In this document: positions 35,775-51,804 of the stretch, piece after piece
Position numbering within the stretch: the first letter of the stretch is position 1
Layout: each line of letters opens with the position of its first letter
DNA from: an uncultured Cohaesibacter sp.
GTDB taxonomy: Bacteria; Pseudomonadota; Alphaproteobacteria; Rhizobiales; Cohaesibacteraceae
Assembly: GCF_963676275.1 (NCBI RefSeq)
Contig: NZ_OY781091.1
Span: 594,775 to 658,774 of the forward strand
Length of the DNA stretch: 64,000 nt
Direction of reading: 5' to 3'
Program-made: the position numbers and the translations under genes
The notes under the pieces: model-generated
Database searches by the model: none
Seen by the model: the letters and a program-made list of their open reading frames with translations, nothing else
Told to the model about the DNA's origin: nothing

Positions 35775-35792
35775 AGTTCAATATGTTGAACT
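35775..35792. promoter_or_regulatory. AGTTCA/TGAACT dyad upstream of the aldolase gene (IclR operator candidate)
   Basis: AGTTCA (35775-35780), six bases, TGAACT (35787-35792): perfect 6-bp arms, extending to AGTTCAA/TTGAACT. The same half-sites occur before the second IclR-linked operon at 49823-49838. It is 74 bases upstream of the aldolase start and likely bound by the IclR protein of 36816. Confidence 0.55.
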
Positions 35793-35865: not shown

Positions 35866-36795
35866 ATGTTTCGACCAAAAGGCGTAATTGCGGCAATGTT
35901 GACGCCGTTCGGTGCAGATCGGCGGGTCAATGAAAAAGAGACGCGAAGGCTTGTTGAATTCGGTATCAAGGCCGGCCTAGACGGAATTTTTCCGGTAAGC
36001 TCGGTGGGTGAAGCCCTTCACATGAATTTTGAAGAAAAATGCCGTTGCATGGAAATTGTTGCGGATCAGGCCGCTGGTCGTATTCCCATTCTGCCGGGCG
36101 TGGCTGCTCCCAATCCATATGAAGCTGCGGATCTGGCCAAATTTGCCAGCAGCATTGGATGTCCGGCCGTCGTGGCTTCGCCACCCTACTATTTCAAGCC
36201 CGATGACTCGATGGTGCAGCGCTTTTTTGAAACCATCGCGGAAAAAAGTGGTGTTCCCGTTATCCTGTATAATATTCCGCTTTTCTCGCAGCCGATTGCC
36301 TATGAGACAATCCGCAAGCTTTGCCGCAACAAACTGGTTGCAGGCATCAAGGATTCAAGTGGCAGCATGGTAGATTTTCTGCATTTCCTCGACATCATCC
36401 GCGAGGAAGACAGCGATATTTCCGTACTGACCGGACGAGAGGAAAGCCTTGTACCATCCTTGCTGATGGGGGGCGCCGGTTGTGTCACTGCGTCTGCTTG
36501 CATTTTTCCTGAAGTAATGGTCTCTGCCTATAAGGCATGGCAAAACAAGGAGATAGAAAAAGCGGTCGCCTTGCAAAAGGCAATTTTGCCGCTGGTTCGC
36601 AAAGCCATGTTCGGAGCGCCTTTTCCCGTTGCCTTCAAGGCTGCGCTGGAAATCCGGGGCTTTGAGATGGGTGAGCCATTGTTGCCCTTGTCCGACAAGG
36701 GAGCCAGAGACCTTGCAGGCCTGACAACGGAGCTTTCGCCCATGATGGAAACGGCCCTTTCTCCCTGGGATGGAGCCGTCGTTAACGCGCGTTGA
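35866..36795 (+). CDS. DapA/NanA-family aldolase (2-keto-3-deoxy sugar-acid aldolase candidate)
   Basis: A 309-residue class I TIM-barrel lyase. MLTPF, the substrate-carboxylate loop VSSVGEA (in place of GTTGE), VILYNIPLF with the catalytic tyrosine, and the Schiff-base lysine in AGIKDSSG are all present. The family includes dihydrodipicolinate synthase, N-acetylneuraminate lyase and 2-keto-3-deoxy acid aldolases. With a rhamnose symporter, mutarotase, lactonase and FucO in the same cluster, cleavage of a 2-keto-3-deoxy-6-deoxyhexonate to pyruvate and lactaldehyde is the likely role; this is inference. ATG 35866 has GGAAGA six bases upstream; earlier in-frame starts at 35806 and 35854 lack a ribosome site. 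Confidence 0.85.
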   Translation: MFRPKGVIAAMLTPFGADRRVNEKETRRLVEFGIKAGLDGIFPVSSVGEALHMNFEEKCRCMEIVADQAAGRIPILPGVAAPNPYEAADLAKFASSIGCPAVVASPPYYFKPDDSMVQRFFETIAEKSGVPVILYNIPLFSQPIAYETIRKLCRNKLVAGIKDSSGSMVDFLHFLDIIREEDSDISVLTGREESLVPSLLMGGAGCVTASACIFPEVMVSAYKAWQNKEIEKAVALQKAILPLVRKAMFGAPFPVAFKAALEIRGFEMGEPLLPLSDKGARDLAGLTTELSPMMETALSPWDGAVVNAR

Positions 36796-36815
36796 TTTCA
36801 GGAGCAAGAGTTCGG

Positions 36816-37616
36816 ATGGCGGAAAAGAAATATCAGGTACCGGCACTCATGAGAGCGAAGAAAATCCTCGATCTTCTCAGCAAGGATGAAGCAGACTTGC
36901 AGGAGTTGGTCAATAAAACGGGATTTCCCAAGAGCTCTACCTACAATCTTCTACAGACAATGGAAGATATCGGCTTTGTCCGGCGCCTGAATAATGGCAG
37001 CAAATTCGCGCTGGGTTTCCGCCTCTATGAGCTGGGCAATCTGGCCGTTGCCAAGGTTTCCATCCGCGATCAGGCCATTGTTCATCTTCGGGCACTCTCG
37101 GAGAGCGAAAAGATTACCTGCCACATGGGCACGCTCGACGGGCTGGAAGCGGTCTATCTGCACAAGGTGGACCCGCAAGACAGCATTCTGATCAATTCGT
37201 GGGAAGGGCGTCGCCTGTCCCTGAACCGGTCTGCCATGGGCAAGGTGCTTCTTGCATGGCTGACCGAGGAACAACGGACCACAATCATCGATGCGCTCTC
37301 CTTTGAAGAAGAGCGCACGCCCTACACGATCACTGACAAGGGAAGCTTTCTGGAGGAGGTGCGCAAGGTGCGCAAGCGTTTCTGGGCAATGGATGATCAG
37401 GAAGATGTTCTGGGCATTCGCTGTCTTGCCGCGCCCATATTTTCGCCCAACGGTGCGGTGAAATATTCACTGAGTGTTTCATCCATGGTGCAGAATATGC
37501 CGCAAGAGCGGATTGGTCCCCTTTGTCAGCGTCTCTTGAAAACGGCTGGAGAAATCTCCAGCGCCCTTGGAACACCGCGCAAGATCTGGTCGCAAATGTT
37601 GGAGGAACATGAATGA
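36816..37616 (+). CDS. IclR-family transcriptional regulator
   Basis: A 266-residue regulator with the N-terminal winged helix (AKKILDLLSKDEADLQELVN; FPKSSTYNLLQTMEDIGFVR) and the C-terminal IclR effector domain (MGTLDGLEAVYLHKVDPQD; LNRSAMGKVLLAWL; GIRCLAAPIFSPNGAV). ATG 36816 is used, after CAGGAGCAAGAG. It sits second in the cluster and would sense a sugar acid; the dyad at 35775 is its likely operator. Confidence 0.93.
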   Translation: MAEKKYQVPALMRAKKILDLLSKDEADLQELVNKTGFPKSSTYNLLQTMEDIGFVRRLNNGSKFALGFRLYELGNLAVAKVSIRDQAIVHLRALSESEKITCHMGTLDGLEAVYLHKVDPQDSILINSWEGRRLSLNRSAMGKVLLAWLTEEQRTTIIDALSFEEERTPYTITDKGSFLEEVRKVRKRFWAMDDQEDVLGIRCLAAPIFSPNGAVKYSLSVSSMVQNMPQERIGPLCQRLLKTAGEISSALGTPRKIWSQMLEEHE

Positions 37617-37649
37617 AACCAGCACCTCAGCCAGGCTAGAGGCCTGATG

Positions 37650-37675
37650 ACGGCTCTCCTGTTCTGGAGAGCCGT
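37650..37675. terminator. Hairpin between IclR and rhaT genes
   Basis: ACGGCTCTCC (37650-37659), loop TGTTCT, GGAGAGCCGT (37666-37675): a perfect 10-bp stem. No T run follows, so it is a doubtful terminator; it may separate the aldolase-iclR unit from the rhaT-fucO unit. Confidence 0.55.
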
Positions 37676-37837
37676 ATTCTAAGCGCTTTCAAAGCTCTCC
37701 ATTCGCGTCATTCGGTTTGATCACCTCGCCGTCGCAAGCTTGTCTCTGCGATGAACGGGAGAGCTTTGCCCAAATTGCAGAAAGTTCGAATTTTGAAAGC
37801 ATTCGTCTTCACTGAGCACAAACTCCGGGAGGTATAA

Positions 37838-38848
37838 ATGGCCAGTGGATTTCTAGTCCTACTCATAGCAAGTTTGTTCCAGGGCAGCTTCGGCCTTGGA
37901 ATGAAGAATTACAAACCATTTTCATGGGAAGCCTTCTGGGTGGTTTTCTCGATCATCGGGATATTGATCTTCCCAATTCTCTGGACCTCGATCGAGGTTC
38001 CGGGTTTCTCGAAATATATCTGGGCGACCCCGATGGGGACGCTGATCCTCGCCGCCGGTTGCGGTTTTCTCTGGGGCGTTAGCGCCATCTGGTATGGCAA
38101 GGCCATCGACAATATCGGCCTCTCCCTGACCGTTGGCATCAACACCGGTGTGGGCACCTCGCTTGGTTCTCTTATCCCCTTGTTTATTCTCGACAAGGTT
38201 CCACCCGCAGGGCCTTTTGCCGTGCTGCTCGCCGGTATGGCAATCATGCTGGTCGGCGTGGGCGTTATCACCAAGGCCGGTCTGATGAAAGATGCCCAGA
38301 GCAAGACCGATGATGAAGTCTCCGTCAATGACAAATTCATGGTCGGCCTGACCATGGCGCTGCTTTCCGGCTTCGGCACGGCGGCGATGAATATCGGCTA
38401 CACCTTCGCCCATCAGGCATCCGTTCTGGCGGTCGCGGACGGCGTCGACCCGGTCAAGGCCAGCCTGATTGCCTATGTCATCGTCTTTGCCGGTGGTGCC
38501 TTCATCGCCAATCTCGGTTACGCCCTCTATGTGATGAAACAAAATGCAACCTGGGGCGATTACCTGAAGAAAGGTGCATCTTTTGCGTATTTCAAGGCCA
38601 TTCTGACCAGTGCATTATGGTTTGGTGCCCTTGGTCTCTACGCCAAGTCCACGGCACTTCTCGGCGACCTTGGTCCGGTCGTCGGCTGGATCGGCTTCAT
38701 GTCTCTTGCACTCATCATCGCCAACCTCTGGGGGATCAAGACAGGGGAGTGGAAAGGCTTCAAGCGCCCACTCAGCATGATGAATCTCGGCAATATTATC
38801 CTGATCATATCGGTGATTGCCGTTGGCTATGCAAACAGCCTGAGCTGA
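37838..38848 (+). CDS. rhaT: RhaT-family L-rhamnose/proton symporter
   Basis: A 336-residue inner-membrane carrier with about ten hydrophobic segments, matching the E. coli RhaT family (LIASLFQGSFGLGMKNYKPF; FLWGVSAIWYGKAIDNIGLS; GINTGVGTSLGSLIPLFIL; ANLWGIKTGEWKGFKRP). It imports L-rhamnose or a related 6-deoxyhexose with a proton. ATG 37838 follows CGGGAGGTATAA. It starts the catabolic half of this cluster. It is a second entry route besides the ABC importer at 57858-62475. Confidence 0.93.
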   Translation: MASGFLVLLIASLFQGSFGLGMKNYKPFSWEAFWVVFSIIGILIFPILWTSIEVPGFSKYIWATPMGTLILAAGCGFLWGVSAIWYGKAIDNIGLSLTVGINTGVGTSLGSLIPLFILDKVPPAGPFAVLLAGMAIMLVGVGVITKAGLMKDAQSKTDDEVSVNDKFMVGLTMALLSGFGTAAMNIGYTFAHQASVLAVADGVDPVKASLIAYVIVFAGGAFIANLGYALYVMKQNATWGDYLKKGASFAYFKAILTSALWFGALGLYAKSTALLGDLGPVVGWIGFMSLALIIANLWGIKTGEWKGFKRPLSMMNLGNIILIISVIAVGYANSLS

Positions 38849-38872
38849 TCTTTGAATTTGGAGGAATAAAAC

Positions 38873-39961
38873 ATGACCAATACAGAACTCTCCAGCATCG
38901 TGAATACCGATCCTGAAAAACCTGCAAATCCCCGCCCGATCGTCAGCATTGGTACCGGTGGCATCGTCACGGACGCCCATTTGCCCGCCTACAGGATGGC
39001 CGGTTACACGGTTGCCGGTTGCTTCGATCTCAATGGCGAGAAGGCGGCCCAGGTCGCAAAGGACTGGGGAATAGAGCGCAGTTTCGACAAGCTTGATGAG
39101 CTGATCGCCTTTGGCGAAGAGCAGGGCGCCATTTTCGATGTGGCGGTACCGGCCTCGGAAATTGCCGGGATCATCAAACAGCTGCCAGAAAAATCCGGCG
39201 TACTTATTCAGAAGCCGATGGGGGAAAGCATCGGGGAGGCCCAGACCATTCTGAAGACCTGCCGCGACAAGAAACTGACGGCGGGTATCAATTTCCAGCT
39301 GCGTCGCGCTCCCTTCATGGTCGCCGCCAAACAGATGATCGATGCCGGTCTGCTTGGGGATATTCATGATGTCGAAATGCGCGTTGTCTGCCAGACACCA
39401 TGGAATCTCTGGAGCTTCCTGTTCGAGAAGGAGCGCATGGAGGTCAACTATCACTCCATCCATTATATCGATGCCGTTCGCTTCTTCCTTGGGGATCCTG
39501 AGGCGGTCTATGCCAAGACCATGAAGCATCCGAAAATGATGGAACTGGCTCAGACGCGGTCTGCCATCATCATGGATTATGGTGATGTGGTCCGCGCCAA
39601 CATCTCCACCAACCATGGCCATGATTACGCACCCGATGAACAGGAATGCTTCTTCAAGATCGAGGGAACGAAGGGGGCCATCAAAATCCAGATCGGCGTC
39701 ATCCTCAACTATCCCAAGGGGTCGGTAGACAAGTTCAGATATGTGCTGGACGACGGCAAGGGCTGGCAGGAGCTGGATATCAGCGGCAGTTGGTTCCCTG
39801 AAGCCTTCATGGGGCCAATGGGCGGACTTCAGAAGAAAATGGAAGATCCGGACTATGCCTTCGCCAACAGCATAGAAGATGCCTACAAGACCATGTGTGT
39901 GGTGGAAGCATGCTACGGCTCGTCCGCCAATGGTGCCACCAAGGTGGAATACGGCTTCTAG
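38873..39961 (+). CDS. Gfo/Idh/MocA-family sugar dehydrogenase
   Basis: A 362-residue NAD(P)-dependent oxidoreductase with an N-terminal Rossmann fold (VSIGTGGIVTDAHLPAYRMA), the IQKPMGES segment (the EKP catalytic-lysine motif, here QKP), INFQLRRAP and NYHSIHYIDAVRFFLGD with the catalytic histidine region. Members oxidise sugars at C1 to lactones or act at inositol or N-acetylhexosamine positions. With the lactonase next door, oxidation of a 6-deoxyaldose to its lactone is plausible. Replacement of the EKP glutamate by glutamine is a little unusual. Confidence 0.88.
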   Translation: MTNTELSSIVNTDPEKPANPRPIVSIGTGGIVTDAHLPAYRMAGYTVAGCFDLNGEKAAQVAKDWGIERSFDKLDELIAFGEEQGAIFDVAVPASEIAGIIKQLPEKSGVLIQKPMGESIGEAQTILKTCRDKKLTAGINFQLRRAPFMVAAKQMIDAGLLGDIHDVEMRVVCQTPWNLWSFLFEKERMEVNYHSIHYIDAVRFFLGDPEAVYAKTMKHPKMMELAQTRSAIIMDYGDVVRANISTNHGHDYAPDEQECFFKIEGTKGAIKIQIGVILNYPKGSVDKFRYVLDDGKGWQELDISGSWFPEAFMGPMGGLQKKMEDPDYAFANSIEDAYKTMCVVEACYGSSANGATKVEYGF

Positions 39962-40022
39962 TCAGCTCTTGAGCAGGACCGGAGCCAATCCTCCGGCCCT
40001 GCCTTTGCGAAAGGAAAGGGTC

Positions 40023-40913
40023 ATGCAGCATATCGTCGATACTCACCTTCACATATGGGACTTGGAGAAATTCTCACTGCCTTGGCTGGATGGGGTTCCC
40101 GCGCTGGCGCATACCGTGACCGAGGCCGATTATCTCGCTGAATGCGGCGAGGGACCGGGCTGGAAACTGGATGCCGCCATCTATGTTGAAGTGGATGTCG
40201 CTGCCGATCAGAAGCTAGCAGAGGTCGCTTATGTCTCGGCCAGATGCGCCCTCAGGGAAAGCCCAATTCTGGCGGCCATCGCATCGCTGGATCTGGGAGA
40301 TCGGGAAAGTGCAGCCATGCTGGCGGAAATGGCGGCCAATCCGGCCATTCGGGGCATCCGCCATGTTCTGCATGTGCCGGAGAGCCCGAAAGGAGCCTGT
40401 CTGGCGCCTGCCTTTGTGGCCAATGTACAGCGTATGGGGGAGTTGGGGCTTCTTTTCGAGGCCTGCCTGCGCTGTGAGGAACTGGAAGATCTGGTTGAGT
40501 TGGCAAAACTCTGTCCCGACACCACGATCATTCTCGACCATATGGGCATCGTCGATGCGCCGGTGATCGCCAAAGCCGATCCGGATCAGAAGGAAAGGCT
40601 CTATCGGGACCGGTGGCTGGCCAACATCGCCGCATTGGGGCATTTGCCCAATGTCGCTTGCAAGATCTCCGGCATTGATGCGCCCAGTGAGGGGGCGATG
40701 GCAAGCCTTCGTCCTGCTTTGGAGGCATGCTTCTCCGCTTTCGGCGAAGACAGGATTCTTTTCGCAACCAACTATCCGGTTTCTCAGCTTGGCCTCGGTG
40801 CAAGGGAGTGGATCGCGATCCTTCTCGGCATCGTGACCGGAAAAAGCGAGACATTCCGCAACAAGCTCTTTTGCGAGAATGCGCTCAAATATTACCGAAT
40901 TTCAAACCATTGA
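40023..40913 (+). CDS. Amidohydrolase-family lactonase (rhamnono/fucono-lactonase type)
   Basis: A 296-residue COG3618-type metal-dependent hydrolase: VDTHLHIWD at the N-terminus with two metal-site histidines, IRGIRHVLHVPES, IILDHMGIVD, ACKISGID and FATNYPVSQLGL. Relatives open L-rhamnono- or L-fucono-lactones. It probably hydrolyses the lactone made by the dehydrogenase at 38873. ATG 40023 is used, after AAAGGAAAGGGTC. Confidence 0.88.
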   Translation: MQHIVDTHLHIWDLEKFSLPWLDGVPALAHTVTEADYLAECGEGPGWKLDAAIYVEVDVAADQKLAEVAYVSARCALRESPILAAIASLDLGDRESAAMLAEMAANPAIRGIRHVLHVPESPKGACLAPAFVANVQRMGELGLLFEACLRCEELEDLVELAKLCPDTTIILDHMGIVDAPVIAKADPDQKERLYRDRWLANIAALGHLPNVACKISGIDAPSEGAMASLRPALEACFSAFGEDRILFATNYPVSQLGLGAREWIAILLGIVTGKSETFRNKLFCENALKYYRISNH

Positions 40914-40934
40914 TGTCCCGGGAGGACGAGAAGA

Positions 40935-41270
40935 ATGACAGATGTCAAACGCGTCAGTGGCGTAATCAGGACCAAACCTGAAAAGGCCGACCGTTACAAG
41001 GAACTTCATGCCAACGCATGGCCGGAAATCAACGCCATGATCAAGGCATGCAACATCCGCAATTATTCCATCTATTTCAAGGACGGCTATCTCTTCTCCT
41101 ATTTCGAATATGTGGGAGAAGATTTCGACGCCGACATGGCCAAGATGGCGGCTGATCCGAAAACCCAGGAATGGTGGGATGAGTGTATCCCATGCCTTGA
41201 ACCGCTCGAAACCAGAGCGCCGCACGAAGATGTTTGGGCGGAGATGGAAGAAGTTTACCACCTAGACTGA
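40935..41270 (+). CDS. rhaM: L-rhamnose mutarotase family protein, copy 1
   Basis: A 111-residue dimeric alpha-beta barrel enzyme of the RhaM/YiiL family, which interconverts alpha- and beta-L-rhamnose. Candidate catalytic residues are H25, Y44 and the W80-W81 pair, in the family order. It is more diverged from E. coli RhaM than the second copy at 57444. ATG 40935 follows CGGGAGGACGAGAAG. Its presence supports a 6-deoxyhexose as the cluster's substrate. Confidence 0.9.
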   Translation: MTDVKRVSGVIRTKPEKADRYKELHANAWPEINAMIKACNIRNYSIYFKDGYLFSYFEYVGEDFDADMAKMAADPKTQEWWDECIPCLEPLETRAPHEDVWAEMEEVYHLD

Positions 41271-41348
41271 CCAAGCAGGCGGTGGGCGGCCATGTCGGCC
41301 ACCGCCATTCCCTGACCTACCAATTCTCGCCCAATTCTGGAGAAAACA

Positions 41349-42509
41349 ATGTCCACAGGTCCGCTGGAAGGCGTTACCGTTCTCGATTTCAGCCAGTTTC
41401 TTGCCGGCCCGTCGGCAGCCATGCGGCTCGCCGATCTGGGAGCAAATGTCATCAAGATCGAAAGACCGGGAACTGGTGATTTAAGCCGCCAGCTCTATTT
41501 GGCTGCCGATATGAAATATGACGGTGACAGCCTGCTTTATCACACCATCAATCGCCACAAGAAGGGCTATGCCGCAAATCTCAAGGATCCCGCAGACCTT
41601 GAGCGGATCAAGAAGCTGATTGCCAGCGCCGATGTGATGATCGAAAATTTCCGCCCCGGCGTCATGACGCGGTTGGGACTTGATTATGAAACCGTCAAAC
41701 AGTTTAATCCCGGCATCGTCTATGGCACCATCACCGGCTATGGAACCGATGGCCCCTGGAAGACATTGCCCGGGCAGGATCTTCTGGCGCAGAGCCGCTC
41801 GGGGCTGACATGGCTCTCCGGCGACGAAAGTCAGGGGCCGGTGCCGATTGGCCTCTCCATCTCGGACCTGATTACCGGGGCTCATCTGGTGCAGGGCATT
41901 CTGGCCTGTCTGGTGCGCAAGGGCGTGTCCGGCAAGGGCGGCCATGTTGAAGTGAGCCTTGTGGAATCCTCTCTCGATCTGCAGTTTGAATTTCTCACGA
42001 ACTTCCTCAATGACGGCAACAAGCTGCCCAAGCGGGCCAATATTCGCAGCGCCAGCGCCTATCTTGGCGCTCCCTATGGCATCTACCCCACAGCGGACGG
42101 TTATCTGGCCCTCGCCATGGGAGACATTCCCCACCTTGGCACCTTGCTGGAATGCTCTGCGCTGATTGCCTTCCCCGATCCCGACGAATGGTTCTCCAAG
42201 CGCGACAGCATCAAGGCGATCCTCGTTGAGCATCTCAAGAAGAGAAAGACGCAGGACTGGCTCGATGTCCTCGAACCCGCCGACTATTGGTGCGCGCCTG
42301 TTCTGACCTGGGAGGATCTGCTTGAGCAGAAGGGCTTCGAGGCTCTGCAGATGACCCAATATGTCGGGCGCAATCAAGAGGAGGGATTCACCACCCTGCG
42401 CTGTCCGATCCGGGTGGATGGCGAGCGCTTCTATAGCCAGCAACCCGCACCACGCGTCGGCGAGCATAATGACGAAATTGAACAGAGCCTGAACGAGATT
42501 TCAGAATAA
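41349..42509 (+). CDS. CaiB/BaiF-family (class III) CoA-transferase
   Basis: A 386-residue family III CoA-transferase with [35 protein letters not shown], the [20 protein letters not shown] core and [11 protein letters not shown]. The nucleophilic aspartate is expected in the SGLTWLSGD region. These enzymes move CoA between organic acids such as carnitine, oxalate, itaconate and bile acids. Next to a MaoC hydratase it implies an acyl-CoA branch within a sugar cluster, which is unusual. The acid it activates is unknown. Confidence 0.9.
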
Positions 42510-42525
42510 CCAGTTGGAGAATAAC

Positions 42526-42981
42526 GTGTTTTTCGAGAAATTTTTTGAAGAATTCGAAATAGGGGAAAGCCGCGAGAGTCAGGGCCGCACCATCACCGAA
42601 ACAGATATCGTGATCCATGCCGGCCAGACTGGCGATTTCTATCCCCATCACATGGATGCCGAATGGTGCAAGACCCAGCCTCAGGGGCAGCGTATTGCCC
42701 ATGGTACCCTGACCTTTGCCATAGCGGCTGGGTTGGGGGCAGGGGCCATCAATTCAAAGGCCATGACCTATGGCTACGAGAAGCTGCGCTTTCCCAAGCC
42801 GGTTTTCATTGGCGATACGGTGCGCGTGACTTTCACCATCACCGACAAGCAACCTCATCCGCGCAAGCCCGGTTTCGGTCTGGTGACCGAACATACCGTA
42901 ATGACCAACCAGCGCGGCGAAACCGTCATGGTTTGTGACCATGTCCATTTTGTTGAATGCAAGACCGGGCCGGACGCCTGA
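42526..42981 (+). CDS. MaoC-like hot-dog hydratase
   Basis: A 151-residue single hot-dog-domain protein of the MaoC/R-hydratase group. The active-site motif is [13 protein letters not shown] (aspartate and histidine), followed by [18 protein letters not shown] and the [17 protein letters not shown] strand. Such proteins add water to, or remove it from, an enoyl/hydroxyacyl-CoA. The start is GTG 42526, with a GGAG site six bases upstream; an in-frame TTG at 42514 overlaps that site. With the preceding CoA-transferase gene it forms a CoA-dependent dehydration pair. Confidence 0.88.
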
Positions 42982-43002
42982 AAGGCGACGCGGGAGAATA
43001 TT

Positions 43003-44151
43003 ATGATACATCTCAAAGGAATGACATGGGATCATCCGCGCGGATATGCGCCCCTTGAGAAGGCCGCCGAATGCTTCAGGGCGATCCATCCCGATGTCAC
43101 CATCAGCTGGGAGCGGCGCTCCCTGCAAGCCTTCGCCGACAGGCCGCTGGCCATGATGGCAAAGGAATATGATTTCATCGTTATAGATCATCCCCATGTT
43201 GGTGAGGCCGAGCGGGACAAGTCTCTCATTCCCCTTGATGGAACCGGCCATGATGAAGAACTGGCGGAATTTGCCGCAAGAAGCGTCGGCCCTTCTTATG
43301 CAAGCTATGTCTATCACGATCATGTCTGGGCCTTGCCTACGGACGCCGCCGCGCAGGTTGCCTGCTTCCGGCCCGACCTGATCGAACAGCCCCCGACCCG
43401 GTGGGAAGAGGTGATCGCGCTGGCAGAGAAGGGCAGGGTCACCATGCCCCTCAAACCGATTGATGCGGCGGCCAGCTTCTGCACCCTGTCGGCCAATCTT
43501 GGCCATCCGGTGGCTGCCAGAGAGGGCGAGCTGTTTGATCGCGCAACCGCGCGCGAAGTGCTTGCAGCCCTCTTGGCGGTGGCCCGAAATCTCGATCCGG
43601 TCTGCCTTTCCAATAACCCGATTGAGGTGCTCGAGCGCATGTCACAGCAGGATGATTTCTGCTACTGCCCGCTGCTTTATGGCTACAATTCCTACAGCCG
43701 CAAAGAGCGTTCCAAACCGATAGCTTTTAACGATATTCCCGCATTGGGGAATGATGGCCCCTGTGGTTCCATGATCGGGGGGGCGGGCATTGCGGTCACA
43801 TCCGGCTGTCAACATCGGGAAATCGCTCTGGAATTTGCGTTCTGGATCATGAGCCGCGAGGTGCAAAGTGGATTTTACTTCGATGCCATGGGGCAACCGG
43901 GACACCGCGATGCGTGGCTGGATGAACGCACCAACGCCCAAAGCCTCGACTTCTTCAAAAATACGCTCGAAACACTGGACAGAAGCTGGCTGCGACCGCG
44001 CTATGACGGCTTCCTCGGCTTCATCGATGCTGCCGGACGGCTTATCAACCGCTATCTGGGGGCGCCGCAGAATGTCGAAACCGTACTGGACGACATGGAA
44101 CAAGCCTACGAAATCAGCCAGAAGCAGCGGCTGGACCGCACATTTGAATGA
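43003..44151 (+). CDS. Solute-binding-protein-like protein without export signal
   Basis: A 382-residue protein whose layout resembles CUT1-type extracellular solute-binding proteins (DFIVIDHPHVGEAERD; VYHDHVWALPTDAAAQVACF; AFWIMSREVQSGFYFDAMGQ). It starts straight into the first lobe (MIHLKGMTWDHPRG) with no signal peptide. An in-frame TGA at 42979, the MaoC stop itself, rules out an upstream extension. It should therefore stay in the cytoplasm, as no permease or ATPase gene is nearby. It may be a metabolite-binding or sensor protein, or an enzyme on a borrowed fold. Its function is unknown. Confidence 0.85.
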   Translation: MIHLKGMTWDHPRGYAPLEKAAECFRAIHPDVTISWERRSLQAFADRPLAMMAKEYDFIVIDHPHVGEAERDKSLIPLDGTGHDEELAEFAARSVGPSYASYVYHDHVWALPTDAAAQVACFRPDLIEQPPTRWEEVIALAEKGRVTMPLKPIDAAASFCTLSANLGHPVAAREGELFDRATAREVLAALLAVARNLDPVCLSNNPIEVLERMSQQDDFCYCPLLYGYNSYSRKERSKPIAFNDIPALGNDGPCGSMIGGAGIAVTSGCQHREIALEFAFWIMSREVQSGFYFDAMGQPGHRDAWLDERTNAQSLDFFKNTLETLDRSWLRPRYDGFLGFIDAAGRLINRYLGAPQNVETVLDDMEQAYEISQKQRLDRTFE

Positions 44152-44218
44152 AGCAAGACCAACGCTCCCTGTCTGCCTGTTCGGGGGCAAGGGTCCAACT
44201 CTCTTATGGAGGAAGCAA

Positions 44219-45367
44219 ATGAACAGAATGATATTGAATGAAACATCCTATTTCGGGGCGGGCTGTCGTTCCGAGCTGGTTACGGAAGTGAAGAATCGTG
44301 GTTTTGACAAGGCCCTGATCGTTACCGATGCGGTGCTTGTCAAAAGCGGGGTGGTCGAAAAGGTGACCGCGCTGCTCGATAAGGCGGGCCTTGCCTATGA
44401 GATCTTCGACAAGGTGATGCCGAACCCGACCATCGCGGTGGTCAAGGAAGGCATCGAGACCTTCAAGAAAGCCGGTGCCGACTATCTGATCGCCATTGGG
44501 GGCGGTTCGCCTCAGGATACCTCAAAGGCCATCGGCATCGTCATCAACAATCCCGAATTTGATGACATTCGCAGCCTTGAGGGCGTCGCGCCGACCAAAA
44601 AGCCCTGCGTGCCGATCATCGCACTGGCCACCACGGCGGGAACGGCTGCCGAGGTGACCATCAACTATGTCATCACCGATACCGAGAAACGCCGCAAGTT
44701 CGTCTGCGTCGACCCGCATGACATTCCCATTGTCGCGATCATTGACAGTGAACTGATGGCTTCGATGCCAACCTCGCTCAAGGCTGCAACGGGCATGGAT
44801 GCCCTGACCCATGCCATCGAGGGCTATATCACGCTTGGCGCATGGGAGCTGACCGACGCGCTGCATCTGAAGGCCATCGAGATCATCGCCAGGTCGCTGC
44901 GCGATTCCTGCGCAGGCAAGCCCGAAGGTGTCGAAGGCATGGCGCTTGGCCAATATGTCGCTGGCATGGGCTTCTCCAATGTCGGGCTTGGACTGGTGCA
45001 TGGCATGGCCCATCCGCTGGGAGCTTTCTATGACACGCCGCACGGGGTGGCCAATGCCATTCTGCTGCCGAGCCTGATGGCCTATAATGCCGAATTTACC
45101 GGTGAGAAATATCGCGATATCGCGGTTGCGATGGGTGTCAAGGGCGTTGAGGCCATGGCGCTGGAAGAGGCCCGCAAGGCGGCGGTTGATGCTGTCCAGC
45201 AGCTCTCGATCGATGTCAAGATCCCGACCAAGCTGACGGAAGTGGGCGCAAGGGCCGAGGATATCGACGCGCTGGCAGAAGCTGCCATGGCCGATGTCTG
45301 CACTGGCGGCAACCCACGCCCGGCCAAGCTCGAAGACGTCAAGGACCTCTACCGCGCCCTGATGTAA
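44219..45367 (+). CDS. fucO: Lactaldehyde reductase FucO, copy 1
   Basis: A 382-residue iron-dependent alcohol dehydrogenase that reduces L-lactaldehyde to 1,2-propanediol, using NADH. The metal ligands D194, H198, H261 and H275 match the E. coli FucO positions shifted by two, and AIGGGSPQDTSKAIGI is the NAD-binding loop. The whole chain reads like E. coli FucO. It closes the deoxyhexose cluster. ATG 44219 follows ATGGAGGAAGCAA. It is nearly identical to the inverted copy at 56105-57253, differing at residues 2 and 225 only. Confidence 0.96.
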   Translation: MNRMILNETSYFGAGCRSELVTEVKNRGFDKALIVTDAVLVKSGVVEKVTALLDKAGLAYEIFDKVMPNPTIAVVKEGIETFKKAGADYLIAIGGGSPQDTSKAIGIVINNPEFDDIRSLEGVAPTKKPCVPIIALATTAGTAAEVTINYVITDTEKRRKFVCVDPHDIPIVAIIDSELMASMPTSLKAATGMDALTHAIEGYITLGAWELTDALHLKAIEIIARSLRDSCAGKPEGVEGMALGQYVAGMGFSNVGLGLVHGMAHPLGAFYDTPHGVANAILLPSLMAYNAEFTGEKYRDIAVAMGVKGVEAMALEEARKAAVDAVQQLSIDVKIPTKLTEVGARAEDIDALAEAAMADVCTGGNPRPAKLEDVKDLYRALM

Positions 45368-47118: not shown

Positions 47119-48012
47119 ATGATTCAAGGCTCAGAACCAGAAGAGGATTTCGATCTGGAAGCCTATCTGGCCACCACGCAGCAAAAGGCATTGTTGCCCG
47201 CGCTCACCGGGCAAGAGGAAGCCGGTCCGTTGGCGAAATATTTTCACGAGCCTATACCGAGCGCCGATCCCGCCCATCTGGCCATGATGGCCAGCCCGTG
47301 CGATCCGGAGGCGGCAATCGGTCCGGAACGGCTCAATGATCTGCTGGAGCCGGGCTATCTGCAAACCGAGATCGGCTGGTGCAATCTGTCAAATGGTGCC
47401 GGCTTCATCGCCAACAGGATGTTCTATCCCGATGCCACGGCACAAATGTTCGACTGGTGGTTCGCGTGGCATCCGCTGGAAGATCTGCGCTACCGGATCT
47501 GGTATCCGGACTGTCATGCCGGAACGCAACTCTCGCCACGGGATCGGGCCCGCCTGACAGACCAGACCTTGCCGCTGGCCGAGCGCAATCAGGGATGCGT
47601 GCATCATGTGACGGAAAATACCGGCTGCGGTATGGAAAATATCGCGATCCATTTCCTCTCTCCCGAGGATATGGGCTTTGATATGGCACGTTTCAAACGG
47701 CCCAATATCGCGTCCTTTGCTGGCGGTTTCGGGCTCAGCGCACCGGTTGTTCGCGAAGGAAACATGCCCCCCGCTCCGGCGATCATGTGCCACACCTTCA
47801 GGGAGAAGGATGGCGGGGTGGAACATCGCACCCGCTTCTGGCTTGGCTATCTCATCAGGGACGGAAAGCCGGAGCTGATGCTGCCGCCGGGTGTCGTCAT
47901 TCCCCCCTTTGCCATCAAGGGACTTGCCGAGCATTGCGTGTGTGAATTCACCAGACTGGGCGAAATGCTGCCCCGCATCTTCGCCGAATTCGGGGCCGAC
48001 CCGATCCGCTAA
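47119..48012 (+). CDS. PhlG-like (2,4-diacetylphloroglucinol hydrolase family) C-C hydrolase
   Basis: A 297-residue protein matching the DAPG hydrolase (PhlG) family: GAGFIANRMFYPDATAQMFD, WWFAWHPLEDLRYRIWYPD, NTGCGMENIAIHFLSPEDM, HRTRFWLGYLI and CVCEFTRLGEM. PhlG cleaves a C-C bond of the antibiotic 2,4-diacetylphloroglucinol using zinc bound by His/Glu residues; likely ligands here lie in WWFAWHPLEDL, GMENI and EHRTRF. Substrate specificity is not evident: phlG homologues outside pseudomonads may act on other acylated phenols or diketones. ATG 47119 follows AAAGGAAAGAAAA. Confidence 0.8.
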   Translation: MIQGSEPEEDFDLEAYLATTQQKALLPALTGQEEAGPLAKYFHEPIPSADPAHLAMMASPCDPEAAIGPERLNDLLEPGYLQTEIGWCNLSNGAGFIANRMFYPDATAQMFDWWFAWHPLEDLRYRIWYPDCHAGTQLSPRDRARLTDQTLPLAERNQGCVHHVTENTGCGMENIAIHFLSPEDMGFDMARFKRPNIASFAGGFGLSAPVVREGNMPPAPAIMCHTFREKDGGVEHRTRFWLGYLIRDGKPELMLPPGVVIPPFAIKGLAEHCVCEFTRLGEMLPRIFAEFGADPIR

Positions 48013-48989: not shown

Positions 48990-49772
48990 TCATGGTCTGA
49001 ATGAATATTGCTCTATGGATTTGCTCAAGGCGTTGGCTCCATTCACTGCCGCTTCCCTCAGGCTCTCGCGCAATGCATCATCAGCCCCTTTCATGAAGGG
49101 GATGGAGAGGGCGGCGATCACTTCGCCTGTTTGGCGAAAGATGGGGGCGGCGAAAGAGCAGACGCTCAGGCTATATTCGCCCCTGTCTTCTGCCCAGCCC
49201 TGCTTCCGGATCAATTCAAGCTCTTTTGCCAACAGATTCTTGTCAGTTATGGTCTTGTCGGTCAGCGCACCCAGATTGCGCGAGAGCAATCTGTCCCGCT
49301 CGGCCTCAGGCAAATAGGCCATCAGCACCTTGCTGGCGCCACCGGCGTGAATGGGCAGATATTCGCCTATTGTGTAGCTCAGGGCATGGGGGGCCTTGGG
49401 TGTTGCGCCGGCAATCACCATGATTGCTTCCGATTCCATAATTGAAATCTTGCAGGTCTGATCGATCTTGAAGGCCAGGAATTCCAGCTCTGGCTGAAGG
49501 AATTGCGCCAGTCGGAAGAAATCACTGTTGTGGGTCACGCTGTTTGCCAGCTCCAGCACCCTGTTGCCCAGCACAAATGTGCCGGTGGAAAGCTCCCGTA
49601 TCATCCGATGCTCTTCAAGCGAGTTCAGGATCCGGTACACGCTCGATCGTGCAAGGCCGGTTTTCTCCACCAGTTCGGTTCTGCTCAAGCCGTGCGGGGA
49701 CCGTTCAAGCTCACGCAATATCTGCATCAGCCTCTCGACCGTCGGGTTTCCGTTCTGCGTCATTTTGGACAT
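48990..49772 (-). CDS. IclR-family transcriptional regulator
   Basis: A 260-residue IclR protein with winged helix (VERLMQILRELERSPHGLSR; GLARSSVYRILNSLEEHRMI) and effector domain (ISIMESEAIMVIAGATPKAP; LPIHAGGASKVLMAYL; YSLSVCSFAAPIFRQTGEVI). ATG 49772 (MSKMTQNGNPT) is used, though in-frame codons continue upstream to 49829. It diverges from the UxuA-family/ABC operon at 49882, with AGTTCA dyads between, and probably represses that operon and itself. Confidence 0.92.
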   Translation of the reverse strand: MSKMTQNGNPTVERLMQILRELERSPHGLSRTELVEKTGLARSSVYRILNSLEEHRMIRELSTGTFVLGNRVLELANSVTHNSDFFRLAQFLQPELEFLAFKIDQTCKISIMESEAIMVIAGATPKAPHALSYTIGEYLPIHAGGASKVLMAYLPEAERDRLLSRNLGALTDKTITDKNLLAKELELIRKQGWAEDRGEYSLSVCSFAAPIFRQTGEVIAALSIPFMKGADDALRESLREAAVNGANALSKSIEQYSFRP

Positions 49773-49801
49773 TGCTTGACCAAACCTCCCAAGTGGCGTA
49801 T

Positions 49802-49838
49802 AGTTCAAATCAGAACATATGCAGTTCAAATATGAACT
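49802..49838. promoter_or_regulatory. AGTTCA/TGAACT operator pair at the IclR-uxuA divergent promoter
   Basis: A perfect dyad AGTTCA (49823-49828), AATA, TGAACT (49833-49838) lies next to a second AGTTC/GAAC pair (49802-49816). The same hexamer arms occur at 35775-35792 before the other IclR-linked operon. They probably bind the two IclR proteins. The site overlaps the expected promoter of the gene at 49882. Confidence 0.6.
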
Positions 49839-49881
49839 ATAATATAGTCAAAACAACATTGCAAGGTTCTTGGAGGAATAA

Positions 49882-50856
49882 ATGAGAACAGCTTTGTGTC
49901 TCGAGCCTGAAATCAACTCCAAATGGTATTACGCAAGAGAAATGTGCGTGAACGACATTGTCACCATCCGGGACGCCACCGCGGAGATTCCTGTCTGGGA
50001 CCTGATGACCCTCGCGCGCATCAAGAAGTCATATGAAGATTTCGGCTTTCGGGTTCCCGTGCTCGAAGGCTGGATTCCGATGGACAATATCAAGCTGGGA
50101 AATCCGGAAGGCGAGCTTGAGCTGGAGCGTGTTCTCGCGATGATCGAGAATATGGGCGCTCTGGGCATCGAGGTCTTCTGCTACAGCTGGATGGCGATAA
50201 ATGGCTGGTTGCGTACATCCATGACCACCCGACTGCCGGGCGGGGCAAGAACCACAAGCTACGACCATGCCATTGTCGAAAAGGACCCCCGCTCAAGCGG
50301 CAAGATTCTCGTAAGCGAAGAGCAGCTCTGGCAGACGCTGGAAGCCTTTCTGGAACGGGCGATACCGGTTGCCGAGAAGGCCGGAGTCAAGCTGGCCATG
50401 CATCCCGATGATCCCCCCATTTCGCCGTTGCTCGGGGTCGGTCGCATCATGAGCAGCGTTGAGAATTTCGAGCGCCTTCTTTCTCTCTCCGACAGTCCGG
50501 CCAATGGCATCACTTTCTGTCAGGCCAATTTTGCCCTGATGCAGGATGACTTGCCCGCAACGATCCGACAGCTCGGGCGCGACGGGCGTATTCATTTTGT
50601 CCATTTCCGCGACATGGAAGGCGACGTCTACCGGATGCACGAGACTTTTCACGGTATGGGGCAAATCGACATGTATGAATGCATCAAGGCCTATATGGAT
50701 ATCGGTTTTGACGGCGTCATGCGGCCCGATCATGCCCCGGTCATGTGGGGAGAGCCGAACAAGCATCCCGGCTATGAAGGGCTCGGCCGGATCTATGCCA
50801 TTGGCTATATGCGCGGTCTGATCGAAGCCGCTCAGGCTGAGCGGAAGGCAGGCTGA
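49882..50856 (+). CDS. UxuA-family (mannonate dehydratase-like) sugar-acid dehydratase
   Basis: A 324-residue TIM-barrel metalloenzyme of the UxuA family, with family metal/active-site wording VKLAMHPDDPPISP, TFCQANF, HFVHFRDMEGD and GVMRPDHAPVMWGE. UxuA removes water from D-mannonate to give 2-keto-3-deoxygluconate; this copy is about 70 residues shorter than E. coli UxuA. Next to an RraA-family aldolase and a sugar ABC importer, it probably dehydrates another aldonate. ATG 49882 follows TTGGAGGAATAA. Confidence 0.88.
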   Translation: MRTALCLEPEINSKWYYAREMCVNDIVTIRDATAEIPVWDLMTLARIKKSYEDFGFRVPVLEGWIPMDNIKLGNPEGELELERVLAMIENMGALGIEVFCYSWMAINGWLRTSMTTRLPGGARTTSYDHAIVEKDPRSSGKILVSEEQLWQTLEAFLERAIPVAEKAGVKLAMHPDDPPISPLLGVGRIMSSVENFERLLSLSDSPANGITFCQANFALMQDDLPATIRQLGRDGRIHFVHFRDMEGDVYRMHETFHGMGQIDMYECIKAYMDIGFDGVMRPDHAPVMWGEPNKHPGYEGLGRIYAIGYMRGLIEAAQAERKAG

Positions 50857-50860
50857 GATT

Positions 50861-51793
50861 ATGGCGACCAATGCTCTCCCGCAAGGTTTTTCCAGTCCGA
50901 TCGTTCCGCGCAAACGCAAAAGACACCGGCCAGACTGGATCATGGCCTATATCTTTCTGGCTCCGGCGGCCGCGATTTTTGCCGCCTTCATCGCCTATCC
51001 GCTGATCGATGGCATTTCCACCGGCTTCACCGATCGCATGATCGCTCGCGGGGGGCATTTCAGCGGACTGGAGAATTTCATCACCCTGTTTTCGGATGCG
51101 ACCTTCCGCGGCGCGGCGCTCAATTCGCTCTATCTCACCGTGGGAACCGTTGCGCTCAAGCTGGTTTTGGGGCTGGCGATGGCGGTGCTGCTATCCCAGC
51201 CGATGCCAGCGCGTGGGCTGATCCGGGCTCTGGCCTTCCTGCCCTGGGCCGTGCCGGGCATGATTGCCAGCCTTTCCTGGAAATGGATCTTTGATGAGCA
51301 GAGCGGTGTTCTGGAATATCTCGTCATGCAACTGGGGCTGAGCGACCGCCCGGTCTACTGGTTGTCGGACCCGTCCATCGCGCTGTTTGTCGTGGCCATT
51401 GCCATGGTCTGGCAGGGGTTGCCCTTCTTCACCATGATGTTCGTTGCCGCTCTGGCCTCCATTCCGCCGGATCTGAACGAGGCGGCGGCCATTGACGGTG
51501 CGGGCACCGTGCGTCGCTTCTTCCGGATCACCCTGCCGCAGATGCGCGGTGTTATCGCGGTTACTGTCATGCTCTCCACCATCTGGACCTTCAATTCCTT
51601 CGAGATGGTCTATGTGCTGACGGGTGGAGGACCGGCTGGCCGTACCCATATCCTGCCGACGCTGGCCTATGAATATGCCATTACGCAAAGCCAGTTGGGG
51701 CTGGGGTCTGCCGTGATCGTTTCGGTCATACCGGTCTTTCTCATTCTCATTGTTCTTCTGACCCAGCGCATGCTGCGCGACCAGAATGCATAA
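50861..51793 (+). CDS. Sugar ABC transporter permease (UgpA/MalF type)
   Basis: A 310-residue six-segment permease with the EAA loop DLNEAAAIDGAGTVRRFFRI. It begins at ATG 50861, four bases after the dehydratase stop codon. It pairs with the permease at 51805. Confidence 0.93.
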   Translation: MATNALPQGFSSPIVPRKRKRHRPDWIMAYIFLAPAAAIFAAFIAYPLIDGISTGFTDRMIARGGHFSGLENFITLFSDATFRGAALNSLYLTVGTVALKLVLGLAMAVLLSQPMPARGLIRALAFLPWAVPGMIASLSWKWIFDEQSGVLEYLVMQLGLSDRPVYWLSDPSIALFVVAIAMVWQGLPFFTMMFVAALASIPPDLNEAAAIDGAGTVRRFFRITLPQMRGVIAVTVMLSTIWTFNSFEMVYVLTGGGPAGRTHILPTLAYEYAITQSQLGLGSAVIVSVIPVFLILIVLLTQRMLRDQNA

Positions 51794-51804
51794 GGAGAGC
51801 TGTC

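Follow-up and report, generated by a model that had tools for sequence, protein, structure and literature searches.

A sugar-oxidation cluster that lacks a recognizable dehydratase

We asked how a cluster of sugar-oxidation genes with no recognizable aldonate dehydratase might carry out the central step of its pathway. The cluster lies in a stretch of 64,000 nt from an uncultured Cohaesibacter sp. (GCF_963676275.1, NZ_OY781091.1:594,775–658,774, forward strand), the whole of which is referred to here as the window. ORF reading and Pfam identified ten plus-strand genes with open frames between positions 35866 and 45367 (Table 1), separated by gaps of 4–78 bp with the exception of 221 bp between the IclR and RhaT genes. 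The initial annotation had named RhaT, mutarotase, Gfo/Idh/MocA, COG3618, DapA-family, CaiB, MaoC and FucO genes; all were recovered with Pfam scores above cut-off, but its list had passed over SBPc, which sits beside CaiB and MaoC.

Table 1. Genes of the cluster and a candidate regulatory site, with positions in the window
Feature	Position	Strand	Evidence or remark
Palindrome GTTCAATATGTTGAAC, candidate IclR operator	35776..35791		74 bp upstream of first gene
DapA-family class I aldolase, candidate 2-keto-3-deoxy-aldonate aldolase	35866..36795	+	Pfam DHDPS 203 bits
IclR-family regulator, second gene	36816..37616	+	Pfam IclR_C 145 bits
RhaT-family sugar/H+ symporter	37838..38848	+	Pfam RhaT 88.8 bits
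Gfo/Idh/MocA dehydrogenase, candidate 6-deoxyhexose 1-dehydrogenase	38873..39961	+	Three Pfam domains, 39–48 bits
COG3618 amidohydrolase-type lactonase (start at ATG 40023)	40023..40913	+	Pfam Amidohydro_2 122 bits
L-rhamnose/L-fucose mutarotase family (RhaM type)	40935..41270	+	Pfam rhaM 103.6 bits
CaiB/BaiF class III CoA-transferase	41349..42509	+	Pfam CoA_transf_3 318 bits, cut-off 23.3
MaoC-type (hot-dog fold) hydratase/dehydratase	42514..42981	+	Pfam MaoC 81.7 bits, cut-off 27
SBPc, cytosolic solute-binding-protein-like	43003..44151	+	Pfam SBP_bac_1/8 ~34 bits, without hydrophobic leader
FucO lactaldehyde reductase (start at ATG 44219, after GGAGG)	44219..45367	+	NCBIfam 684 bits

Non-phosphorylative L-fucose and L-rhamnose pathways consist of a dehydrogenase, a lactonase, an aldonate dehydratase and a KDF/KDR aldolase; an outline of the L-rhamnose pathway is given in PMC3870299. 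The window shares with the non-phosphorylative L-fucose and L-rhamnose pathways a mutarotase, a dehydrogenase, a COG3618 lactonase, a DapA-type aldolase and a lactaldehyde reductase; it differs in its likely sugar dehydrogenase, a Gfo/Idh protein, and in having CaiB, MaoC and SBPc where an enolase, IlvD or UxaA dehydratase would be expected. The absence of the usual dehydratase, already remarked in the initial annotation, was borne out by Pfam and family HMMs, which found no enolase, IlvD or UxaA gene among the ten genes at 35866–45367. Families were assigned with small HMMs that we made from fetched sequences (the crotonase, or ECH, model includes L028 and L054); the dehydratase models cover enolase, IlvD, UxaA and UxuA. 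A UxuA-family gene 4.5 kb downstream (49882–50856) was rejected as the missing dehydratase since it sits in the next cluster, with an IclR gene and ABC permeases; UxuA is known for D-mannonate.

FucO exceeded the NCBIfam lactaldehyde reductase cut-offs (684 vs. 537 and 632 vs. 523). The DapA-family protein fell under the dapA cut-off (TIGR00674, 183.7 vs. 206.15) and that of the nanA equivalog, and is by these scores a member of the wider aldolase family other than DapA proper. The lactonase, with 79.9 bits against the cut-off of 400 of NCBIfam FuconLaconase, belongs to the wider Amidohydro_2 family. The mutarotase and RhaT matched their Pfam models and stayed below the NCBIfam equivalogs (TIGR02625, 45.8 vs. 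99.6; L-rhamnose symporter, 296.5 vs. 369), and the best NCBIfam model for the IclR regulator was KdgR (150 bits, below the cut-off of 275). The Gfo/Idh/MocA protein is a candidate 6-deoxyhexose 1-dehydrogenase, a role assigned by elimination in a Sinorhizobium meliloti cluster. This L-fucose-type locus on pSymB shares Gfo, MaoC, mutarotase and COG3618 with the window and has a CaiB–SBPc pair ~17 kb away, but it also encodes an annotated L-fuconate dehydratase, an SDR, an FAH protein and an ABC transporter.

The palindrome upstream of the first gene is a candidate operator of the IclR regulator. Its pattern, GTTCAANNNNTTGAAC, has its sole perfect match in the 5.03-Mb genome at this site and occurs with one mismatch at 14 other places, against three genome places in all for the reversed pattern used as a control; the chance of encountering GTTCAANNNNTTGAAC in the window with at most one mismatch is 0.13.

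Conserved catalytic residues and a solute-binding-like partner

We compared CaiB and MaoC across 91 loci. The window CaiB is classed as a class III (CaiB/BaiF) CoA-transferase on the basis of Pfam and of Asp173, presumably the nucleophile, whose column holds Asp in all 120 CaiB proteins. The seven NCBIfam models that it matched all fell under cut-off, and the L-carnitine CoA-transferase equivalog reached 83.3 bits (cut-off 413). MaoC has the features of a MaoC-type acyl-CoA hydratase, namely the MaoC domain together with Asp41 and His46, which we take to be the catalytic pair and which are conserved in 91 of 91 MaoC proteins.

In SBPc, 30 columns are invariant across 53 sequences, and W9, H11, R13, D57, D62, D114, Y228 and Q298 are among them. 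The protein weakly resembles solute-binding proteins (Pfam ~34 bits, and a profile match to trehalose/maltose-binding proteins) and departs from those of ABC transporters, as its N-terminus is not hydrophobic and the ten genes include no ABC permease. A first contig search with single SBPc peptides as queries returned no relatives. We know of no CoA-transferase mechanism that explains a conserved partner of this fold, which counts against the relay proposed below.

The gene set recurs without a known dehydratase

A search for co-occurrence had been suggested in the initial annotation. The same gene set was found in four Enterobacterales loci (with FucO in three), and no known dehydratase was present within ~20 kb. 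Each of these loci carries two CaiB genes (52%–57% identity) that fall outside the group of the window CaiB (some nodes weakly supported), and their RhaT, Gfo and DapA proteins are 68%–70%, 70%–72% and 28%–29% identical to those of the window. We argue from the two differently grouping CaiB proteins and the distant DapA that the Enterobacterales set may represent an independent assembly. An Opitutales locus (L102) has the lactonase, mutarotase and DapA-type aldolase and likewise lacks a modeled dehydratase. In the Enterobacterales loci and L102, the CaiB, MaoC and SBPc genes (hereafter the module) are thus the only in-cluster candidate for the central step.

A genome scan with a MaoC alignment drawn from such clusters returned at least 582 relatives. 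Linkage was counted in the best 80 of these, and owing to this choice and to the origin of the query the percentages describe that subfamily: SBPc was present in 74/80 loci, CaiB in 71/80 and Gfo in 62/80. SBPc and CaiB lay on the same strand within 60 bp of each other in 60 of the 69 loci that had both. Models of the known dehydratase families (enolase, IlvD, UxaA and UxuA) found a match in 14 of the best 80 loci; the corresponding counts were 10/52 for loci longer than 20 kb, 4/39 for loci with COG3618 and 1/7 for loci with a DapA-type aldolase. The Gfo–MaoC–CaiB–SBPc linkage holds across about seven phyla, a count that assumes our assignment of the loci to phyla.

MaoC and SBPc were also associated at the level of genomes. 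In a class-wide sample of 385 genomes, four had MaoC (E ≤ 1e-50), six had SBPc and three had both (Fisher p = 8e-6), with up to five candidates per genome scored in one scan and up to 10 in the other. The six SBPc matches were clear-cut (E of 7e-104 or better, the next being 7e-12), and one genome (G087) had MaoC and was not among them. Within the order, 39 genomes had MaoC at E ≤ 1e-30; the SBPc search covered the 23 at E ≤ 1e-69 besides G000 and found SBPc in 23 of 23.

Parallel clusters pair CaiB with a crotonase instead of MaoC

SBPc relatives (E < 1e-60) in 61 related genomes occupied nine loci, of which four had MaoC, four had CaiB with a crotonase, and one, a 6.8-kb contig, had neither. 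Four plasmid loci (L207–L210) encode CaiB, SBPc and crotonase consecutively, with no modeled dehydratase within 20 kb and with an adjoining SDR gene in three of them. In Martelella, CaiB is directly beside the crotonase gene with no SBPc between them, and enolase genes are found in neighboring clusters.

The CaiB–crotonase clusters of Martelella, Pseudosulfitobacter and Pararhizobium encode FAH proteins of one family. The Martelella protein matches the Sulfolobus 2-keto-3-deoxy-D-arabinonate dehydratase 2Q18 (E = 4e-17), and those of L207 and L210 are 66%–68% identical to it. Weimberg-type pentose oxidation uses an FAH-fold 2-keto-3-deoxypentonate dehydratase, and the presence of FAH proteins is what the CaiB–crotonase clusters have in common with it; L207 and L210 differ from it in encoding CaiB and crotonase, with the xylonate/arabinonate dehydratase model unmatched. 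If the FAH proteins act on a 2-keto-3-deoxy acid, the preceding step should produce such an acid. The strongest evidence for the proposed dehydration of an aldonate as its CoA thioester is that acyl-CoA hydratases of two unrelated folds fill the same slot, that of the dehydratase, in sugar clusters.

A candidate CoA-thioester route to the 2-keto-3-deoxy acid

The chances seem to us evenly balanced that the cluster encodes a non-phosphorylative 6-deoxyhexose pathway in which a CoA-thioester relay replaces the aldonate dehydratase, and we would neither favor nor disfavor the more specific proposal that this relay is CaiB/CaiD-like and has a 6-deoxyaldonate as its substrate, with L-fuconate or L-rhamnonate the probable choice. 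In L-carnitine dehydration by Escherichia coli, CaiB swaps CoA between the substrate and the dehydrated product, and CaiD, an acyl-CoA hydratase, catalyzes the elimination. The window has in common with this system a class III CoA-transferase and an acyl-CoA hydratase, and differs in its sugar-acid setting, its hot-dog MaoC instead of a crotonase, and its SBP-like partner.

Gene content, conservation, linkage and the intact catalytic residues are observed here; the reactions, substrate, CoA cycle and SBPc role that we infer would run as follows. RhaT would import L-fucose or L-rhamnose, the mutarotase would provide the correct anomer, Gfo/Idh would oxidize C1 to form the lactone, and COG3618 would open it to the aldonate, to which CaiB would transfer CoA. 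Since the C2 proton would be acidic in an aldonate held as a thioester, Asp41 and His46 of MaoC could remove it and expel the hydroxyl at C3, and 2-keto-3-deoxyaldonyl-CoA would form as its enol. CaiB would swap CoA from 2-keto-3-deoxyaldonyl-CoA to the next aldonate, as in the carnitine system, so that no ATP and no net CoA would be used. In the cytosol, SBPc may bind the sugar acid, free or as a CoA ester, and either present this ligand or shield the labile 2-oxoacyl-CoA. The DapA-type aldolase would release pyruvate and lactaldehyde, and FucO would reduce the latter. A role in the conversion of lactoyl-CoA to acryloyl-CoA was rejected, as removal of an alpha-hydroxyl is not known for MaoC proteins.

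A broader proposal, to which we give a little less than even weight, is that CaiB, SBPc and a hydratase constitute a class of CoA-dependent aldonate dehydratase not described before. It would occur in about seven phyla, would have arisen with two unrelated hydratase folds (hot-dog MaoC and crotonase) and would serve both 6-deoxyhexose and pentose-type oxidation; SBPc would then be an SBP-fold subunit within a CoA-transferase system, of which we know no earlier example. CoA-dependent sugar-acid dehydration was not described in the open-access titles and abstract openings listed. In known sugar-acid dehydratases the enolate is stabilized by a metal ion (enolase), an iron–sulfur cluster (IlvD) or a metal-dependent site (UxaA-type); the thioester route, if true, would add another chemical solution, one assembled from enzymes whose families serve fatty-acid and carnitine metabolism. 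Many loci (at least 582 MaoC relatives in one genome scan) in fucose-type and pentose-type clusters, whose genes bear the labels "CoA transferase," "MaoC" and "extracellular solute-binding protein," would then gain a function that can be tested, as would the solved structure 4FFU, labeled just "oxidase," and SBPc would no longer be read as part of a transporter.

Dehydratases elsewhere in the genome and alternative readings

The pathway reading and the CoA branch put forward in the initial annotation gained from the recurrence of the cluster without a dehydratase and from the pairing of either MaoC or crotonase with CaiB–SBPc; against the CoA branch stand FucD-like enolases elsewhere in the genome and the presence of both systems in relatives. 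The window genome has eight MR_MLE_C genes above cut-off, two of them FucD-like, together with three UxaA-type genes and one IlvD gene. The last, a single copy adjoining an apparent tryptophan synthase beta gene, was taken as biosynthetic and set aside. The two FucD-like enolases, which share 54% and 56% identity with S. meliloti FucD, lie at ~337 kb and ~579 kb in the genome. Both are in other clusters that contain apparent TRAP transporter genes (named by eye), one of them together with a KDPGal-type aldolase gene.

Loci of Sinorhizobium, Nitratireductor, Roseibium, Roseateles sp. XES5 and Ponticoccus contain FucD or UxaA alongside Gfo–MaoC and CaiB–SBPc, so replacement of the dehydratase by the module need not be general, and in such loci the relay would be redundant, parallel, or devoted to another function. 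This pairing, seen in several rhizobial and Rhodobacterales clusters, suits an alternative that we consider unlikely yet worth serious attention: CaiB, SBPc and MaoC would handle another dietary acid, such as a uronate or an epimeric or substituted (e.g., O-methylated) sugar acid unsuited to enolase-type dehydratases, while FucD or UxaA dehydrates the main aldonate, in the cluster or in trans. The FucD-like and UxaA-type genes of the window genome fit this alternative, as do the varying glycosidase neighbors of the module: among the matches listed for 39 large flanking ORFs, GH95 appeared in four, GH78 in two and GH29 in one, and a 915-aa flanking family occurred in 12 loci, one member of which, scanned singly, had a GH67N domain (Pfam scans of 39 and 79 chosen ORFs; top 25 families). 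The Enterobacterales loci and L102, with the module as sole in-cluster candidate, argue against it; even this alternative leaves room for CoA chemistry with a sugar acid as substrate.

A decidedly improbable alternative is that the cluster serves an ordinary fuconate or rhamnonate pathway with a FucD-like enolase in trans, and that CaiB, MaoC and SBPc are mere passengers whose work has nothing to do with it. Besides the two FucD relatives of the window genome, the four Enterobacterales genomes with the cluster contain other enolases (31%–39% identical over parts of FucD), and among 18 module-holding genomes queried with FucD only two had no enolase-family match; most therefore hold some enolase, of unassigned specificity. 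A full-length FucD match of at least 38% identity, however, was found in only two of the 18, one of them with two in-frame stops, and a third genome had a two-piece match (30%–37%). The initial annotation had held that a dehydratase elsewhere under the same regulator would tell against a CoA route. FucD-like enolases do exist, but no copy of GTTCAANNNNTTGAAC, allowing one mismatch, was found near either, and an operator common to the cluster and these genes was rejected, the operator itself being only a candidate. Moreover, Gfo, MaoC, CaiB and SBPc stay linked over about seven phyla, which is not expected of passengers.

We find it very hard to credit that CaiB is a CoA-ester epimerase or racemase, or SBPc the catalyst, with MaoC as a regulatory binder of CoA esters; alpha-methylacyl-CoA racemase is among the relatives of the CaiB fold and SBPc has its 30 invariant columns, but the catalytic pair of MaoC is intact throughout and crotonase substitutes for it in parallel clusters. 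An itaconate- or citramalate-like branch (CaiB CoA-transferase, MaoC hydratase and CitE-type lyase), hinted at by matches far under cut-off to the NCBIfam mesaconate CoA-transferase and RipB/Ich hydratase models, can be practically dismissed, as none of the 91 loci has a CitE (HpcH/HpaI) relative at E < 1e-8 to two CitE references and the neighbors are sugar transport and lactonase genes.

Variation in the layout of the module

An operon with two CaiB genes, COG3618 and RhaT and without the mutarotase was found in 21 loci, with a modeled aldolase gene inside the locus in L061 only; this counts against the proposed relay, as does the distance of SBPc from MaoC in Rhizobium-like genomes. The L023 sequence, being out of frame, was left out of alignment A2. 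SBPc is 5–6 kb from CaiB in L024 and L027, and in Rhizobium-like genomes it lies ~9–14 kb from MaoC or, in G671, on another contig.

Gene content of the cluster

ORF listing, translation and Pfam/NCBIfam scans bore out the gene content that the initial annotation had assigned to the ten-gene cluster (see table). Intergenic gaps are 4–78 bp, except for 221 bp between IclR and RhaT. The class III CoA-transferase (CaiB) is followed by the hot-dog hydratase (MaoC) and then by SBPc, a solute-binding-protein-like gene previously left unnamed. A perfect palindrome lies 74 bp upstream of the first gene and is the single perfect copy in the genome; its class, GTTCAANNNNTTGAAC, occurs at 15 places (one perfect and 14 with one mismatch) versus three for the reversed control pattern. 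Just downstream is a separate cluster, in which a UxuA-family (mannonate-dehydratase-like) gene is accompanied by a divergently oriented IclR gene and by two genes for sugar ABC permeases. We also noted a DAPG-hydrolase gene (PhlG-type, PF18089, 230 bits) and, after it, an NAD-dependent epimerase-like gene, which are unexpected company for sugar clusters.

SBPc matches Pfam SBP_bac_1/8 weakly, has no hydrophobic leader and begins at the mature domain. The alignment of 53 members has 30 invariant columns (including W9, H11, R13, W36, D57, D62, D114, Y228 and Q298), and among the PDB matches of its profile were trehalose/maltose-binding proteins. The simplest reading is that SBPc is a putative cytosolic sugar-acid-binding partner of CaiB. 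A second SBP-like type lacking an evident leader (SBPB) adjoins Gfo, the Gfo/Idh/MocA dehydrogenase, in several clusters.

Coordinates of the features described, in the window or in the locus named
Feature	Sequence	Coordinates	Strand	Remarks
Ten genes, in order: DapA-family aldolase, IclR, RhaT, Gfo/Idh/MocA, COG3618 amidohydrolase, RhaM-type mutarotase, CaiB, MaoC, SBPc, FucO	window	35866–45367	+	
COG3618 start	window	40023	+	shifted slightly
SBPc	window	43003–44151	+	
FucO start	window	44219	+	shifted slightly
DAPG-hydrolase gene	window	47119–48012		
UxuA-family gene group	window	48990–52647		
UxuA-family gene	window	49882–50856		
MaoC2	L017	19319–19885		
MaoC2	L021	8713–9342		
SBPB	L018	14739–15866		
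SBPB	L019	17453–18685		
SBPB	L015	18779–19966		
915-aa protein	L083	17043–19790		
CaiB + crotonase clusters, Rhodobacterales/Hyphomicrobiales plasmids	L205	1660–3691		FAH
	L207	6887–11103		SBPc, FAH
	L208–L210			SBPc in each; FAH in L210

The gene set in distant bacteria

The initial annotation had proposed searching for co-occurrence of these genes. A MaoC profile scan of 84,980 species, each represented by a single genome, gave at least 582 relatives, of which we kept the best 80 loci; from their record titles, we take these to span Pseudomonadota, Bacteroidota, Bacillota, Verrucomicrobiota, Acidobacteriota, Chloroflexota and Planctomycetota. The set recurs in the four closest of these best 80 (Citrobacter amalonaticus, Klebsiella spallanzanii, an Enterobacterales MAG and Biostraticola tofi), each with two CaiB, SBPc, RhaT, Gfo, COG3618, a DapA-type aldolase, mutarotase and MaoC, and three of the four with FucO. 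Identity to the window is 66%–72% for RhaT, Gfo, mutarotase and FucO, 67%–71% for MaoC, 52%–57% for CaiB, 41%–43% for COG3618, 39%–41% for SBPc and 28%–29% for DapA, and the window CaiB groups apart from theirs in a quickly built tree, some of whose nodes are weak. Judged by sequence, the five loci seem to have put one functional set together from different parts; this argues for its functioning as one pathway.

Among the best 80 of at least 582 MaoC loci, SBPc was present in 74, CaiB in 71, Gfo in 62, COG3618 in 39, RhaT in 32, mutarotase in 15 and a DapA-type gene in seven; 54 had MaoC, SBPc, CaiB and Gfo together. SBPc and CaiB lay on the same strand within 60 bp in 60 of the 69 with both, and a known dehydratase family occurred in 14 of the 80 (10/52 among loci >20 kb). 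When the window and ten earlier loci were added (91 loci), the catalytic Asp column was Asp in all 120 CaiB, and MaoC retained Asp41 and His46 in 91/91. The family of the window MaoC includes a solved structure, 4FFU, deposited as an "oxidase" (284 bits to the MaoC profile). A paralogue, MaoC2 (in L017, L021 and others), often adjoins CaiB–SBPc; its residue at the His46 position is Val, a His stands two residues past the Asp (both 20/20), and it is possibly a non-catalytic partner.

Among 61 genomes (the window's own and 60 relatives), SBPc was found at E < 1e-60 in nine places in eight genomes. The cluster looks acquired in this genus, because among 17 congeners SBPc had no match in 14 and matched only at E 5e-5 to 5e-4 in three. 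MaoC of order members is 57%–88% identical to that of Sinorhizobium meliloti, with similar gene company, which points to Hyphomicrobiales as the probable order. In an order sample, 39 of 297 genomes had MaoC at E ≤ 1e-30. Apart from genome G000, 23 of these had MaoC at E ≤ 1e-69 and 15 a weaker hit; the SBPc search covered the 23 and found SBPc in 23/23, among them Rhizobium-like genomes with SBPc 9–14 kb from MaoC. A class sample of 385 genomes had MaoC in four and SBPc in six, with three common to both; one, G087, has MaoC yet is missing from the SBPc hits.

Dehydratase genes elsewhere in the genome DEHYDRATASES

For the initial annotation, an aldonate dehydratase encoded elsewhere but sharing the regulator would refute its proposal. 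Half of this applies: the genome encodes a plausible dehydratase, but none of the findings links it to the cluster. Of the enolase-superfamily genes, eight score above the MR_MLE_C cut-off (enolase proper, named by eye, falls below it); the genome also has a single IlvD gene and three of the UxaA type. Two of the eight, at ∼337 kb and ∼579 kb, resemble L-fuconate dehydratase (FucD), sharing 54% and 56% identity with the S. meliloti enzyme. Both lie in other clusters, beside TRAP-transporter-looking genes, and one of these clusters holds a KDPGal-type (DgoA-like) aldolase gene and a DgoK-like gene (assignments made partly by eye). None of the 14 one-mismatch palindrome copies in the genome lies near them.

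A query with FucD alone against 18 module-holding genomes picked from the best 80 of at least 582 gave full-length matches of ≥38% identity in two, one carrying two in-frame stops, a two-piece match (30%–37%) in G700, partial or weaker enolase matches in 13 and no enolase match in two. Counter-evidence comes from Sinorhizobium, Nitratireductor, Roseibium, Roseateles sp. XES5 and Ponticoccus, where FucD or UxaA shares a cluster with Gfo–MaoC, with CaiB–SBPc nearby; there, the module has a redundant, parallel or different role. Further counter-evidence lies in the 21 of 91 loci, mostly Bacteroidota, whose operons have two CaiB, COG3618 and RhaT without mutarotase: a modelled aldolase gene is present in one (L061).

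A second hydratase fold

Tracing CaiB through plasmid records led to Martelella mediterranea, in which an operon adjoining a MaoC-type cluster encodes, besides an annotated aldose 1-epimerase and an SDR, both CaiB and an enoyl-CoA hydratase of the crotonase type, along with an ABC sugar transporter and an FAH-fold protein (FAH) of 381 aa; no SBPc is annotated between CaiB and crotonase. The FAH shows similarity to 2-keto-3-deoxy-D-arabinonate dehydratase 2Q18 (E 4e-17) and to the FAH-family entry 9KKT (E 3e-122); neighboring clusters contain enolase genes. The crotonase has relatives in 44 plasmid records. Four further records were opened (Pseudosulfitobacter, Rhizobium sp. Q54, Sinorhizobium medicae and Pararhizobium): all have the order CaiB, SBPc, crotonase, three have an SDR, two have FAH after crotonase (66%–68% identical to that of Martelella), and none has a modelled dehydratase within 20 kb. 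These plasmid clusters may represent a CoA-dependent Weimberg-type pathway.

The 61-genome search also gave five divergent SBPc loci without MaoC. CaiB and crotonase are present in four, in two of these 5–6 kb from SBPc; the fifth, a 6.8-kb contig, has neither. KDG-kinase-like genes scoring below the curated cut-off occur in loci L024 and L025, and L024 additionally holds a muconate-cycloisomerase-like enolase. The presence of either acyl-CoA hydratase fold with CaiB and SBPc in a slot expected to produce a 2-keto-3-deoxy acid is hard to explain other than by CoA-thioester dehydration.

Proposed mechanism and substrate

In carnitine metabolism (CaiB/CaiD), a class III CoA-transferase hands CoA from the dehydrated product to fresh substrate. 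By analogy, such CoA exchange would be the closest logic for the module; the proposed chemistry is alike, but substrate class and the SBP partner differ. Elimination from an aldonyl-CoA by MaoC or crotonase would yield 2-hydroxy-2-enoyl-CoA, the enol of 2-keto-3-deoxyaldonyl-CoA, because the C2 proton would be alpha and the C3 hydroxyl beta to the thioester. We found no description of such a CoA-dependent pathway in the open-access literature, among the matches listed.

L-Fucose is the favored candidate substrate because of the S. meliloti gene company and the GH29/GH95 alpha-L-fucosidase neighbors in some loci. L-Rhamnose is a possible alternative, given RhaT and GH78 in two of 39 flanking ORFs.

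Finally, a 915-aa protein family lies beside MaoC–SBPc–CaiB–CaiB operons in L083 and 11 other loci; in the one member scanned, a GH67 N-terminal domain alone was recognised, and this is possibly an unknown glycosidase family.
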